Below, piece by piece: positions 6,984 to 59,425 of a DNA stretch of 64,000 nucleotides. Below the pieces are notes generated by a model that saw only the letters and a program-made list of their open reading frames with translations, had not been told where the DNA came from and did no database searches. The first letter of the stretch is position 1, and each line of letters opens with the position of its first letter. The translations under genes and the position numbers were made by a program. The stretch is from Hymenobacter oligotrophus. Its GTDB lineage: Bacteria; Bacteroidota; Bacteroidia; Cytophagales; Hymenobacteraceae. The stretch is from assembly GCF_003574965.1 (NCBI RefSeq), contig NZ_CP032317.1, forward strand, positions 2,914,001 through 2,978,000, in the 5' to 3' direction.

Positions 6984-7242
6984 ACATGCCGGCTCCCAAG
7001 GCCCACAGCCTGCTCCGCTACCTAGGGGAGGCTGTTTTTTTGCTGGCTGCTGGGGGTTTGCGCGCTACGTGTGCCTACCTGGGCGGCCTTGCCGAGGCCT
7101 TGCCGCGGGTGGCTTAGGGTACCGATACAAAATCTCCGCGCCCACACGTAGCCCTGACCTCCGCTTTTGCGTACATGCCATCCGCGGCCTGCCCCAAAAG
7201 CAGGCAAGTAGCTAAGCCAAAACCCTACTCATTTTACCCGCT

Positions 7243-7605
7243 ATGGAAAATCAACTCCAGCAAAACCTCGACAAAATCATGCCCGAGGACCTGGCCCGCA
7301 CTTTCGAAAGTGCTTACCACGTGATTCAAGGCAACAACGACCACATGGAAGACCTGCTGCGCCACGGCGGTGCCCTGCTGCGCAAAGCCAGCCAGCGCTT
7401 CACGCCCACGCAGCTCGTGCTCGGCATTGCGGTGCTGGCCGTTGGTACGGTAATCGTACTCACGAAGTACTCCGACCAGATTCAGGACGCCATTGAGGAC
7501 CTGACCGACGGCGACGACAACAACGGCCAGCAAAACCGCGGCGGCGCACAGGCCAAAAGCAAGCCCGCTCAGCAAGGTCAGCAAGGTCAACAAGGCCAGC
7601 ACTAA
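7243..7605 (+). CDS. Small single-span membrane protein, function unknown
   Basis: The 120-residue protein has a polar N-terminal region (1-65), one predicted membrane segment (about 67-85, LVLGIAVLAVGTVIVLT) and an acidic then Gln/Gly-rich tail with a repeated QQGQ motif (about 109-119). There is no signal peptide, and no family is recognised. The gene stands alone, 259 bases after the hydratase gene, and is closed by a strong terminator. Base composition and codon use match its neighbours, so it is likely real. Confidence 0.75.
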   Translation: MENQLQQNLDKIMPEDLARTFESAYHVIQGNNDHMEDLLRHGGALLRKASQRFTPTQLVLGIAVLAVGTVIVLTKYSDQIQDAIEDLTDGDDNNGQQNRGGAQAKSKPAQQGQQGQQGQH

Positions 7606-7623
7606 CGCATAAAGCGCTCATTA

Positions 7624-7670
7624 CCAAAAGGCCCGCTCCGGAACATTGGTTTCCGGGGCGGGCCTTTTGG
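7624..7670. terminator. Strong hairpin terminator
   Basis: A 19-base arm at 7624-7642 (CCAAAAGGCCCGCTCCGGA) pairs with 7652-7670 with one G-U pair. It follows the stop codon of the preceding gene by 18 bases. The flanking A and T runs make it usable on both strands. Confidence 0.85.
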
Positions 7671-7715
7671 CGTGTTCACATCATCATGTGATTGCACTTA
7701 GCCATCATCAGGCTG

Positions 7716-7723
7716 TAATCTTG
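7716..7723 (+). promoter_or_regulatory. Possible -7 element (TAATCTTG) for the first basic small protein
   Basis: The octamer differs from TAnnTTTG at one position and lies 49 bases before the ATG at 7773. No clear -33 partner was found. Confidence 0.4.
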
Positions 7724-7772
7724 CAGCACAAATAATCCATACCAAACCCACAAAGTACCACGCTCCACTGCT

Positions 7773-7982
7773 ATGAAAACCTTTTGCTTCAGCCTGATTT
7801 TCGCCGTGTTGGCCGCTGCTCCGTTCGAGGCTACTTACGCCGCGCCAACCGCTACCCCCGAAACCACCACCCACCTGGCCGCCGACACCGAAGATTTGGG
7901 CGGCGGCTACAAGCTCAAGCGCAAAAAGCGCAAGAAAAACCGTGCGATGCGCCGCTACCGCCGGTTGCGCGGTTTGCGGTAA
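7773..7982 (+). CDS. Tiny secreted, strongly basic protein (paralogue 1)
   Basis: The 69-residue protein has a Sec-type signal peptide (about residues 1-23, ending TYAA). A short Thr/acidic stretch follows, then a LGGG motif, then a tail in which 15 of the last 23 residues are Lys or Arg (KLKRKKRKKNR, then RYRRLR). The gene at 8158-8367 encodes a clear paralogue with the same architecture and the shared core LGGG.K.KRKKRKKNR. No family is recognised. It could be an envelope, polyanion-binding or antimicrobial-type peptide, but this is speculation. A hairpin terminator follows at 8024-8061, so the two genes are separate units. Confidence 0.75.
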   Translation: MKTFCFSLIFAVLAAAPFEATYAAPTATPETTTHLAADTEDLGGGYKLKRKKRKKNRAMRRYRRLRGLR

Positions 7983-8023
7983 GCCATTGAGCTTATCGAA
8001 ATCGGTAAAACCTACCACTTACG

Positions 8024-8061
8024 GCCCCGGTTCAGGATGGATACCTGGATCGGGGTTTTTA
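8024..8061 (+). terminator. Terminator between the two basic-protein genes
   Basis: CCCCGGTTCAGG pairs imperfectly with CCTGGATCGGGG around a short loop and is followed by TTTTTATTTC. Confidence 0.8.
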
Positions 8062-8098
8062 TTTCTTTTCATATAAATACTTGTATTTATTTATTGTA

Positions 8099-8106
8099 TA
8101 ACTTTG
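8099..8106 (+). promoter_or_regulatory. -7 element TAACTTTG upstream of the second basic small protein
   Basis: The octamer is an exact match to TAnnTTTG. It sits in a markedly AT-rich 60-base stretch (8055-8115) and lies 52 bases before the ATG at 8158. A TTG at 8081-8083 could serve as a -33 element with short spacing. Confidence 0.6.
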
Positions 8107-8157
8107 ATTAGCACAACAGTAACCCGATACAACACCAACTACTAACCAACTCACCCC

Positions 8158-8367
8158 ATGAAATTAATTTGCTACGCGCTATTGCTGGCGGTGCTGGCCT
8201 CGGTGCCGGCCGAAGCCGCCGTTTCCGAAACCACCGACGCAGCGGCTGCCTCTACCGCCGTATTAAAAGCCGACGAGCTGGGCGGCGGCGACAAGTTTAA
8301 GCGCAAAAAGCGCAAGAAGAACCGCACCGCCATGCGCCACCGCCGTCAGCGGCAACGCATGCGCTAA
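8158..8367 (+). CDS. Tiny secreted, strongly basic protein (paralogue 2)
   Basis: The 69-residue protein begins with a signal peptide (about residues 1-20, ending AEA). A short Ala/Thr-rich, mildly acidic segment follows, then LGGGDKFKRKKRKKNR and a tail with 15 Lys/Arg in 24 residues. Its length, layout and core motif match the gene at 7773-7982, so the pair arose by tandem duplication. The signal and linker have diverged while the basic core is nearly identical, which suggests selection on the core. It has its own AT-rich promoter region. It ends five bases before the convergent SRAP gene. No function is known. Confidence 0.78.
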   Translation: MKLICYALLLAVLASVPAEAAVSETTDAAAASTAVLKADELGGGDKFKRKKRKKNRTAMRHRRQRQRMR

Positions 8368-8372
8368 GCCAC

Positions 8373-9038
8373 CTAGGCCGCTGGCTGCAGCACCGCGGGG
8401 TCGTTGTGAGCGGGCGAGTTTACCAACGTCGTAACGGCGTATTCCTTCAGCAGGCCGTCGGGCAGCGGGCGCAGCAGCGCCTGGTGCTCGGCGGCTGTTG
8501 CGTCTTCGGCAAGCCAGGCAAGCTCGGCGTCGCGCGAGGGCAAAATCACGGGCATGCGGTTGTGCAGCCGCGCCATCAGCTCGTTAGGCTCGGTGGTAAC
8601 GATGGTGAACGTGGGCACCACCTCGCCGGTGCTGCGGTCGGCCCATTCGTCCCACAGGCCGGCAAAGGCAAAGGGTTGCTCGTCGAGGCGCAAAATGCGG
8701 TGCGGCACCTTGCCGCGGCCCTTTTGCTGCCACTCGTAAAAGCTATCGGCCAGCACAAGGCAACGGCGGCGCTGCAACAACTGCCGGAAAGAAGGTTTTT
8801 CACCAAGGGTTTCGGCCCGGGCGTTGATGGGCTTGGCAGCGGCCCGCACGTCTTTCACCCAGGCCGGAATCAGCCCCCATTGCACCAGCCGAATTTCGTG
8901 TGGGGCCAAGTTGGTAACGATGGGCATGCGCTGCGACGGGGCAGCATTATAGCTGGTAGGAGCGGGTTCGGTAAAGGTGGCATCGAAGCGCTGCTCGACG
9001 GTGGGGGCTGGGGCAATAAAGGTGTAGCGGCCGCACAT
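8373..9038 (-). CDS. SRAP (YedK/HMCES) family abasic-site response protein
   Basis: The protein is 221 residues from the ATG at 9038. That start is chosen because it places the invariant Cys at residue 2 (MCGRYTF), where it becomes N-terminal after Met removal. Other family marks are the NARAE block (residues 72-76), the SFYEWQ block with Glu102, and HNRMPVIL. SRAP proteins form a covalent thiazolidine link with abasic sites in single-stranded DNA and protect them during replication. The gene is single and not linked to SOS genes here. Confidence 0.94.
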   Translation of the reverse strand: MCGRYTFIAPAPTVEQRFDATFTEPAPTSYNAAPSQRMPIVTNLAPHEIRLVQWGLIPAWVKDVRAAAKPINARAETLGEKPSFRQLLQRRRCLVLADSFYEWQQKGRGKVPHRILRLDEQPFAFAGLWDEWADRSTGEVVPTFTIVTTEPNELMARLHNRMPVILPSRDAELAWLAEDATAAEHQALLRPLPDGLLKEYAVTTLVNSPAHNDPAVLQPAA

Positions 9039-9251
9039 AGGCAAAAAGTAAAGATTGGCTTTGTCCTAAAACGCAATAACACGGCGGAAGATGCTTTTCG
9101 GCAATTATTGACGAGCTAGCCGCGGTTTTGCTTCGGCCAAATTGTATCTTTACTAAGTCGGAATCAACCTTTTGCACCAAAACAAGCTACACTAGCTTTT
9201 TAGCAAGGTTGCCTCCAACGCCCTGCTCCGCCCCACCGCCTGCTTCTGCCT

Positions 9252-9764
9252 ATGCCCCAATTTTACCCCCTTTACGAAAGTTCGGAAATTGCCATTGCCC
9301 ACGACAAGCGCAACTGCTGGTTGTACGTGCAATGGCTGGGCAACCACAATGTGGACAGCATACGGAATGGCTGCCTGCTGCTGCTGCATTACCTGCAGGA
9401 AACCAAGTCGGCGAAGCTGCTTAACGACGACACGCACGTAACCATTGCTGCCCAAATCACCGATGCCGACTTGGATTGGCGCCCGGGCGACACGCCCTGC
9501 GAGGGCTCGGCGGTTTGGGTGGGCAGCACGTTCTACTCCATGCTGGCCTCGGCGGGCTTGCAGTTTATTGCTTGGGTAAATGCGCCCAGCGTACTCAACC
9601 GCCGCACCGCCGACCTGGCTCTGAATGTGAGCGAAACCGTGCAGCTACCCGAAAACCGACCGTTGGTGGTCACCTTCGACGACTTGGCCTCGGCTTACGA
9701 GTGGTTGCAGAAACGCGAAATCAAGCGCCCGGTAACCAGCGAAATCCCTTTGTTTATTCATTAA
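9252..9764 (+). CDS. Uncharacterised protein, possibly STAS-like
   Basis: The 170-residue protein lacks a signal peptide and membrane segments. Its pattern of hydrophobic strands and helices, the phrase LYVQWLGNHNVDSIRNG near the N-terminus, and an approximate resemblance to short STAS/SpoIIAA-like Bacteroidota proteins suggest a cytoplasmic binding or regulatory domain, but no diagnostic motif was found. It stands alone between the SRAP gene and oxyR. Codon use matches the genome. Confidence 0.7.
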   Translation: MPQFYPLYESSEIAIAHDKRNCWLYVQWLGNHNVDSIRNGCLLLLHYLQETKSAKLLNDDTHVTIAAQITDADLDWRPGDTPCEGSAVWVGSTFYSMLASAGLQFIAWVNAPSVLNRRTADLALNVSETVQLPENRPLVVTFDDLASAYEWLQKREIKRPVTSEIPLFIH

Positions 9765-59274: not shown

Positions 59275-59425
59275 AGCAATAGGTAGGGCAGTGAGGGCGG
59301 AGTACCGGCCGCGCAAGCAGCCGATGGCACAAACGTAAATTATTACTGCTCACAACCAAGCATTTATCACATCAATATGTGAAGCTCAGCTGTGGCAACT
59401 ATTCCTGCTAAATACACCTAGGCCC

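Follow-up and report, generated by a model that had tools for sequence, protein, structure and literature searches.

Several described systems lie close to the proteins reported here, which we call BAS. Asr, the enterobacterial acid shock protein, is small, periplasmic, disordered and strongly induced by an environmental stress (PMC10746267). BAS proteins are likened to Asr by general layout, and they differ in having a compact Lys/Arg tail, a paired locus and a likely NarL-type regulator. Similar to cationic antimicrobial peptides and bacteriocins, they are short, cationic and probably exported, but few of their tail residues are hydrophobic, no recognizable immunity or transport genes lie adjacent and their locus is fixed. 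NarL/FixJ regulons likewise combine receiver and GerE domains with a HisKA_3 kinase. NarL sites consist of two heptamers around a 2-bp centre, and the palindrome described below can be read in the same way; here, however, the half-site is TCACATN, the sensor carries Reg_prop and Y_Y_Y domains, and the predicted targets are often exported. Two database families come near by score. BAS2, but not BAS1, weakly resembles the BRANT His-rich protein NF047414 (residues 1–61, 18 bits against a 44-bit cut-off), from which it differs in that BAS tails are Lys/Arg-rich. New_glue (PF21827) was the only Pfam family matched by the 28 sequences of our alignment A3, most of which were found by position; 2 of the 28 matched weakly (best E 0.0012), probably through composition.

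The window analysed here is the whole 64,000-nucleotide stretch of Hymenobacter oligotrophus DNA. A first-pass annotation had singled out two neighbouring 69-residue genes, tiny and highly basic, and both open reading frames (ORFs) were confirmed (Table 1). Each protein consists of MK, a hydrophobic stretch, an A-x-A signal-peptidase-like region, a spacer, LGGG and a basic tail; 15 Lys/Arg fall within the last 24 and 25 residues of the two window copies, which have KRKKRKKNR in common. The spacer, described beforehand as neutral or acidic, holds no Lys/Arg in BAS1 but one Lys in BAS2. The LGGG motif is present in both window copies but absent from the aligned copies of genus g5, making it a local feature. 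Signal peptides were called by a crude hydropathy rule, hence our wording 'signal-peptide-like' and 'exported-type'. Among 36 sequences from both genera that carry the family, 20–49 residues separate the N-terminal charge from the next Lys/Arg, and the remainder after this Lys/Arg-poor stretch retains 9–16 Lys/Arg. Positive charge early in a mature region hinders export, and the distance kept between Lys/Arg and the signal peptide fits this rule. By eye, A-x-A-like sites were seen after the hydrophobic stretch in the aligned sequences. AlphaFold2 predicted a helix at residues 2–15, a low-confidence linker and a second helix at residues 45–68 (block pLDDT 70–86; mean 66.6). With assumed cleavage sites, the mature peptide would be roughly 46–49 residues long with a net charge of about +11.

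Table 1 Features of the BAS locus (positions in the window)
Feature	Position	Strand	Remarks
F3	7243..7605	+	120-residue protein with one hydrophobic helix; anchor of the locus
Hairpin with short T run, possible terminator after F3	7626..7668	+	Read from sequence; kept in three species
Palindromic site TCACATNATNATGTGR, predicted operator	7676..7691	.	Precedes first-copy orthologues of both genera
-7-like element TAATCTTG	7716..7723	+	24 bp after the palindrome
BAS1, first copy	7773..7982	+	69 residues; ORF read, homology, dN/dS, AlphaFold2
BAS1 signal-peptide-like segment	about 7773..7844	+	Followed by the linker
BAS1 basic tail	7908..7979	+	
Terminator-like hairpin after BAS1	8023..8057	+	Terminator scan; region aligned in three species
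-7-like element TAACTTTG of BAS2	8099..8106	+	No palindrome here
BAS2, second copy	8158..8367	+	69 residues
BAS2 basic tail	8290..8364	+	
SRAP (SOS response associated peptidase) gene	8373..9044	-	PF02586, E 5.5e-68; convergent

Comparison of the window with its two closest relatives revealed purifying selection on the tails (dN 0.00–0.05, dS 0.41–0.70) and drift in the linkers (dN 0.12–0.48). For BAS1 of the window against G004, these values were dN 0.017 and dS 0.471 in the tail and dN 0.483 and dS 0.974 in the linker, single values that are rough because the sequences are short. A homologue was found in all eight genomes of the organism's own genus, its own genome counted, with two copies at the locus in seven and one copy in G001. 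The tandem duplicate is present as annotated, but the duplication is old, given that pairs occur in both genera. BAS1 and BAS2 are real genes of a lineage-specific family.

Neither window copy passed the curated cut-off of any Pfam or NCBIfam family or matched any Pfam family at E 1, in line with the annotation's remark that no family with this layout was known. No paper on the BAS family or its predicted regulon stood among those listed by a literature search. We used two profiles to trace the family, A3 and a 22-sequence profile, A1, built from homology hits and the basic ORFs beside them. At E ≤ 1e-3, A3 matched 67 of the 204 genomes of the bacterial family, many of these matches probably being down to composition. 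At E ≤ 1e-9 it gave 50 matches in 35 genomes, all 50 sharing the strand of F3 and lying under 1 kb past that gene, a result that is partly circular because A3 holds sequences from that place. A1 matches in six genomes that contributed nothing to A1 (G028, G020, G123, G159, G085 and G150) also lay downstream of F3. Order-wide, A3 matched 32 of 390 sampled genomes at E ≤ 1e-3, and those below 1e-9 were all in genera g1 and g5. Eight of the 61 matches at E ≤ 1e-5 lay away from F3 and were left out of the family; one of them, from G132, is counted in this group because its F3 place was not among the matches listed. The survey of homologues, conservation and copy number thus returned one or two copies at a fixed place, with strong matches in only two genera, and supports the view that the two genes form a tandem pair whose small, highly basic products are probably exported and fall outside known families.

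Other identities were considered and set aside. Origin from a mobile element or phage was rejected on finding no match for BAS1 in a plasmid collection and none for BAS2 in a phage collection; one PHROG match to BAS2 was weak (E 0.0085). An RNA element was rejected after an Rfam search of positions 7200–9100 returned no family. Solved structures yielded seven matches, which were taken as chance arising from basic stretches; the strongest was a mitochondrial ribosomal protein at E 0.009. LGGG resembles a double-glycine bacteriocin leader, but its absence from the aligned g5 copies and the signal-peptide-like start already in place led us to discard this identity. A leader or arrest peptide was discarded as well, as no co-directional gene follows BAS2 and a terminator-like hairpin follows BAS1.

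The place of the pair is defined by F3, which was matched in 202 of the 204 genomes, as a rule once, and has no Pfam or NCBIfam family above cut-off. Besides the window, we examined 77 loci downstream of F3 (17 and 60), the g5 loci being taken largely in order of F3 score and not randomly; L094–L096, weak matches elsewhere with neither F3 nor SRAP, were left out. By a crude filter, a basic ORF with a signal-peptide-like start occurred in 35 of the 77 loci, comprising 7/7 in g1, 28/50 in g5 and 0/20 in other genera, and the second copies of L091, L092 and L153 were found separately. Of these 35 loci, 24 had a convergent SRAP gene no more than 900 bp away; in the set L077–L093, SRAP stood next to BAS at 16 of 17 loci. 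F3 adjoined SRAP (88–141 bp) with nothing between them in L128, L154 and L155, and genomes G188, G151 and G161 have F3 next to SRAP without BAS, indicating that the pair can be lost and is dispensable there. Further neighbours include genes for queuosine synthesis, IspD, enoyl-CoA hydratase, LysR, catalase and an M16 peptidase. No immunity or transporter gene was recognized among the nine neighbours scanned, two of which, F3 and a 170-residue protein at 9252, have no family. The annotation had credited each gene with its own terminator, but the scan found such a hairpin only after BAS1; BAS2 stops 5 bp short of the end of the convergent SRAP gene. The hairpin after F3 is not listed by the terminator scan.

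The tails of second copies form distinct types, such as KRRKRKKSRPAYRR and, in another clade, LPYERALRRNELFR. At nine loci of Hymenobacter-like genomes (L092, L093, L144, L145, L153, L157 and L160–L162), another small protein of exported type takes the place of the second copy, with a C terminus that reads like YxxAxRRNELFR; this variant gave 14 strong matches in the bacterial family.

Upstream of BAS1, positions 7600–7790 showed 90% mean column identity in three species despite a whole-gene dS of 0.60–0.85 in the comparisons computed. Within the longest stretch without any change lies TCACATCATCATGTGA, which is perfectly palindromic about a 4-bp centre. Seventeen of the 77 loci, and also the window, have the pattern TCACATN4ATGTG no further than 1.3 kb past F3, and L151 has a variant. 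In L077–L079 and L082 the gene order is swapped, and the site precedes the first-copy orthologue, which is now second; no palindrome was found upstream of the second copy. Both genes had been annotated with a promoter-like context. The -7-like elements do match the Bacteroidota consensus TAnnTTTG, but a sigma-70-type scan found no promoter, and the two species closest to the window lack the exact element TAACTTTG. Among 19 promoters, the distance from palindrome to TAnnnTTG was 24 bp in four and 33–34 bp in seven, and eight g5 promoters had candidate elements at both spacings. Throughout the organism's own genome, the strict pattern with at most one mismatch gave 35 strand matches and a reversed control gave none.

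Two further occurrences of the palindrome were recorded. A near-match with one mismatch, TCACATCAATATGTGA, lies at 59367–59382 of the window, 92 bp from the start of a minus-strand ORF beginning METTFAPAVSAGW, which may encode a pyridoxamine oxidase. Second-locus relatives of the basic proteins, with tails ending in KRKQTLRRRKRMFSF, were seen in L034, L035 and L038 (G140, G136 and G194), where a palindrome stands 96–109 bp before the ATG; these three are weak profile matches outside the family count.

We read the surroundings of 42 sites, comprising 18 of the 21 distinct sites in the own genome and 24 in relatives. An ORF with a signal-peptide-like start began 45–120 bp downstream at 21 of them, six being first-copy BAS genes, and the other half had none; when these six sites were left out, 15 of 36 had an exported-type ORF. 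Random positions in the same loci had such an ORF in 62 of 2,520 cases, a control that overstates the enrichment because most of these positions fall inside genes. When only sites leading into ORFs of 150 residues or more were considered, 12 of 23 were exported-type, recurrent orthologues being counted more than once, compared with 19 of 133 genes of like size in the background (8/35 in the window, 11/98 in L077–L092). Candidate targets in the own genome include an M1-like peptidase (below the Pfam cut-off), a PD40 protein, a DUF2911 protein, a DUF4476 protein, an S41 peptidase, an L-PSP/RidA-type protein, a DUF5916/CBM9 protein and the regulator described below. By eye, the M1-like protein recurs behind a site in G140, G136 and G005, and the DUF2911 protein in G006. 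A palindrome common to BAS1 and exported-type genes points to the envelope.

One palindrome site adjoins a gene for a NarL-family response regulator (Response_reg and GerE domains), the partner kinase of which contains Reg_prop repeats (seven stretches), Y_Y_Y, HisKA_3 and HATPase_c. We followed motif and regulator through a panel of 34 chosen genomes. In 19 of them a BAS gene was preceded by the palindrome or something close to it; the other 15 comprised three with BAS but no palindrome, six without BAS, two with F3 next to SRAP and four from other genera. The strict motif was present in 21 of the 34 (140 strand matches), and a reversed control pattern gave three matches in the panel (G005, G193 and G176). 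A regulator orthologue (E ≤ 1e-110) was found in the same 21 genomes and the other 13 had neither, a co-occurrence confounded with phylogeny because the panel was partly chosen by palindrome and the genomes are related; G010 had only a 50%-identical relative of the regulator. Motif and regulator were present in G151 and G161 with no BAS pair at the locus, and the BAS genes of G123, G150 and G168 had neither strict palindrome nor regulator, so the BAS family does not need this two-component system. Under the strict pattern, 14 of 21 regulator genes had a site no more than 300 bp away; with the 4-bp centre left free, 20 of 21 loci had one beside the gene, 19 just after the stop codon and one only upstream; L277 had no site beside the regulator even with a free centre. 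Judged from sequence, this two-component system is likely to own the motif, and ownership by another regulator is possible.

Behind the regulator, the palindrome is followed by an ORF of 24–25 codons that encodes nothing more than a signal-peptide-like sequence, with ALA or AIA just before the stop codon. This micro-ORF was seen by eye in 16 of the 21 loci (L258–L270, L273, L275 and L276) and by pattern in 15; the own-genome copy lies outside the window, at about G000:C1:2391912-2391989. Its median dN was 0.06–0.11 and its median dS 0.41–0.69. By analogy with MgrB (PMC8404706), the product may sit in the membrane as a micropeptide and adjust the activity of the kinase.

We tentatively favour, as a reading that may well prove wrong, that BAS proteins are exported, disordered polycations that bind anionic polymers of the envelope, with BAS1 under the control of this two-component system. 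BAS1 and BAS2 would leave the cytoplasm through Sec, largely disordered, and signal peptidase would release a mature peptide in which a flexible spacer rich in S/T/A leads into a basic tail able to form a helix. The mature peptide would remain periplasmic or on the outer surface, bound electrostatically to LPS, exopolysaccharide or DNA, where it would stabilize or neutralize anionic polymers. High charge and few hydrophobic residues mean that it should bind such polymers rather than pierce membranes. BAS1 would be a target, probably activated, of the NarL-family regulator and its Reg_prop/Y_Y_Y sensor kinase; the same system may also control the M1-like and S41 peptidases and the DUF2911, DUF4476 and PD40 proteins, and BAS2 would be driven by a separate promoter without a palindrome.

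A periplasmic disordered chaperone of the Asr kind, induced by stress, keeping proteins soluble and protecting the outer membrane, would share the small, exported and disordered layout, and the palindrome that BAS1 has in common with other exported-type genes, peptidases included, would suit it too; the part that is conserved in BAS, however, is a compact Lys/Arg block, and we consider this role unlikely, if worth keeping in mind. Rather improbable is a cationic antimicrobial peptide, in which the linker would be a propeptide and the freed basic tail would kill neighbouring cells. The signal-peptide-like start, the strongly cationic tail, its modelled helix and a maximal hydrophobic moment of 0.47 over 11 residues in the BAS1 tail (0.34 in the second copy) agree with such a peptide, but mean tail hydrophobicity is -0.87 in the first copy and -0.98 in the second, compared with -0.04 to -0.38 for three antimicrobial peptides, making lytic action unlikely. 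A killing peptide is also disfavoured by the fixed place in both genera, by the empty plasmid (BAS1) and phage (BAS2) searches and by the lack of a recognizable immunity or transporter gene among the scanned neighbours, of which F3 and the 170-residue protein have no family. We favour an envelope role over a killing peptide on the grounds of fixed place, low tail hydrophobicity, the absence of such a recognizable gene and the predicted operator shared with other exported-type genes.

Export itself has a competitor. Because the hydrophobic segment is followed by a strongly basic tail, the protein could stay anchored in the membrane and keep that tail in the cytoplasm, where it would bind nucleic acid or the inner leaflet; the positive-inside rule would favour this topology, and the neighbouring SRAP, going by its family, acts on DNA. 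The A-x-A-like sites seen by eye after the hydrophobic stretch, the long Lys/Arg-free stretch before the tail and the often exported-type genes behind the palindrome argue against such an anchor, which we judge distinctly improbable. A type I toxin-like small membrane protein silenced by antisense RNA, which BAS resembles in outline through its tandem copies, hydrophobic segment and charged tail, is very improbable given the lack of any Rfam family in 7200–9100, the conserved upstream palindrome with its promoter-like element and the single stable place.

Returning to exported polycations that bind the envelope, a bolder version can be drawn, which we regard as a long shot: the polycation would coat or cross-link the anionic surface, switched on by the periplasmic beta-propeller sensor system and possibly tuned by the micropeptide, as an extracellular counterpart of protamine. 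The regulation of BAS, that is, the predicted operator and its two-component system, is new relative to the original observation of two basic genes. Annotation of small exported proteins is poor, and context for them is usually missing; BAS, with no entry in the libraries searched, now has a fixed locus, a selection signature, a predicted operator and a candidate regulator, which place its role within reach of a direct genetic test. The predicted regulon offers a genetic handle on the control of envelope and secreted proteins in Hymenobacter-like bacteria. If it is true that a polycation coats the surface, this would be an unusual way of managing surface charge.
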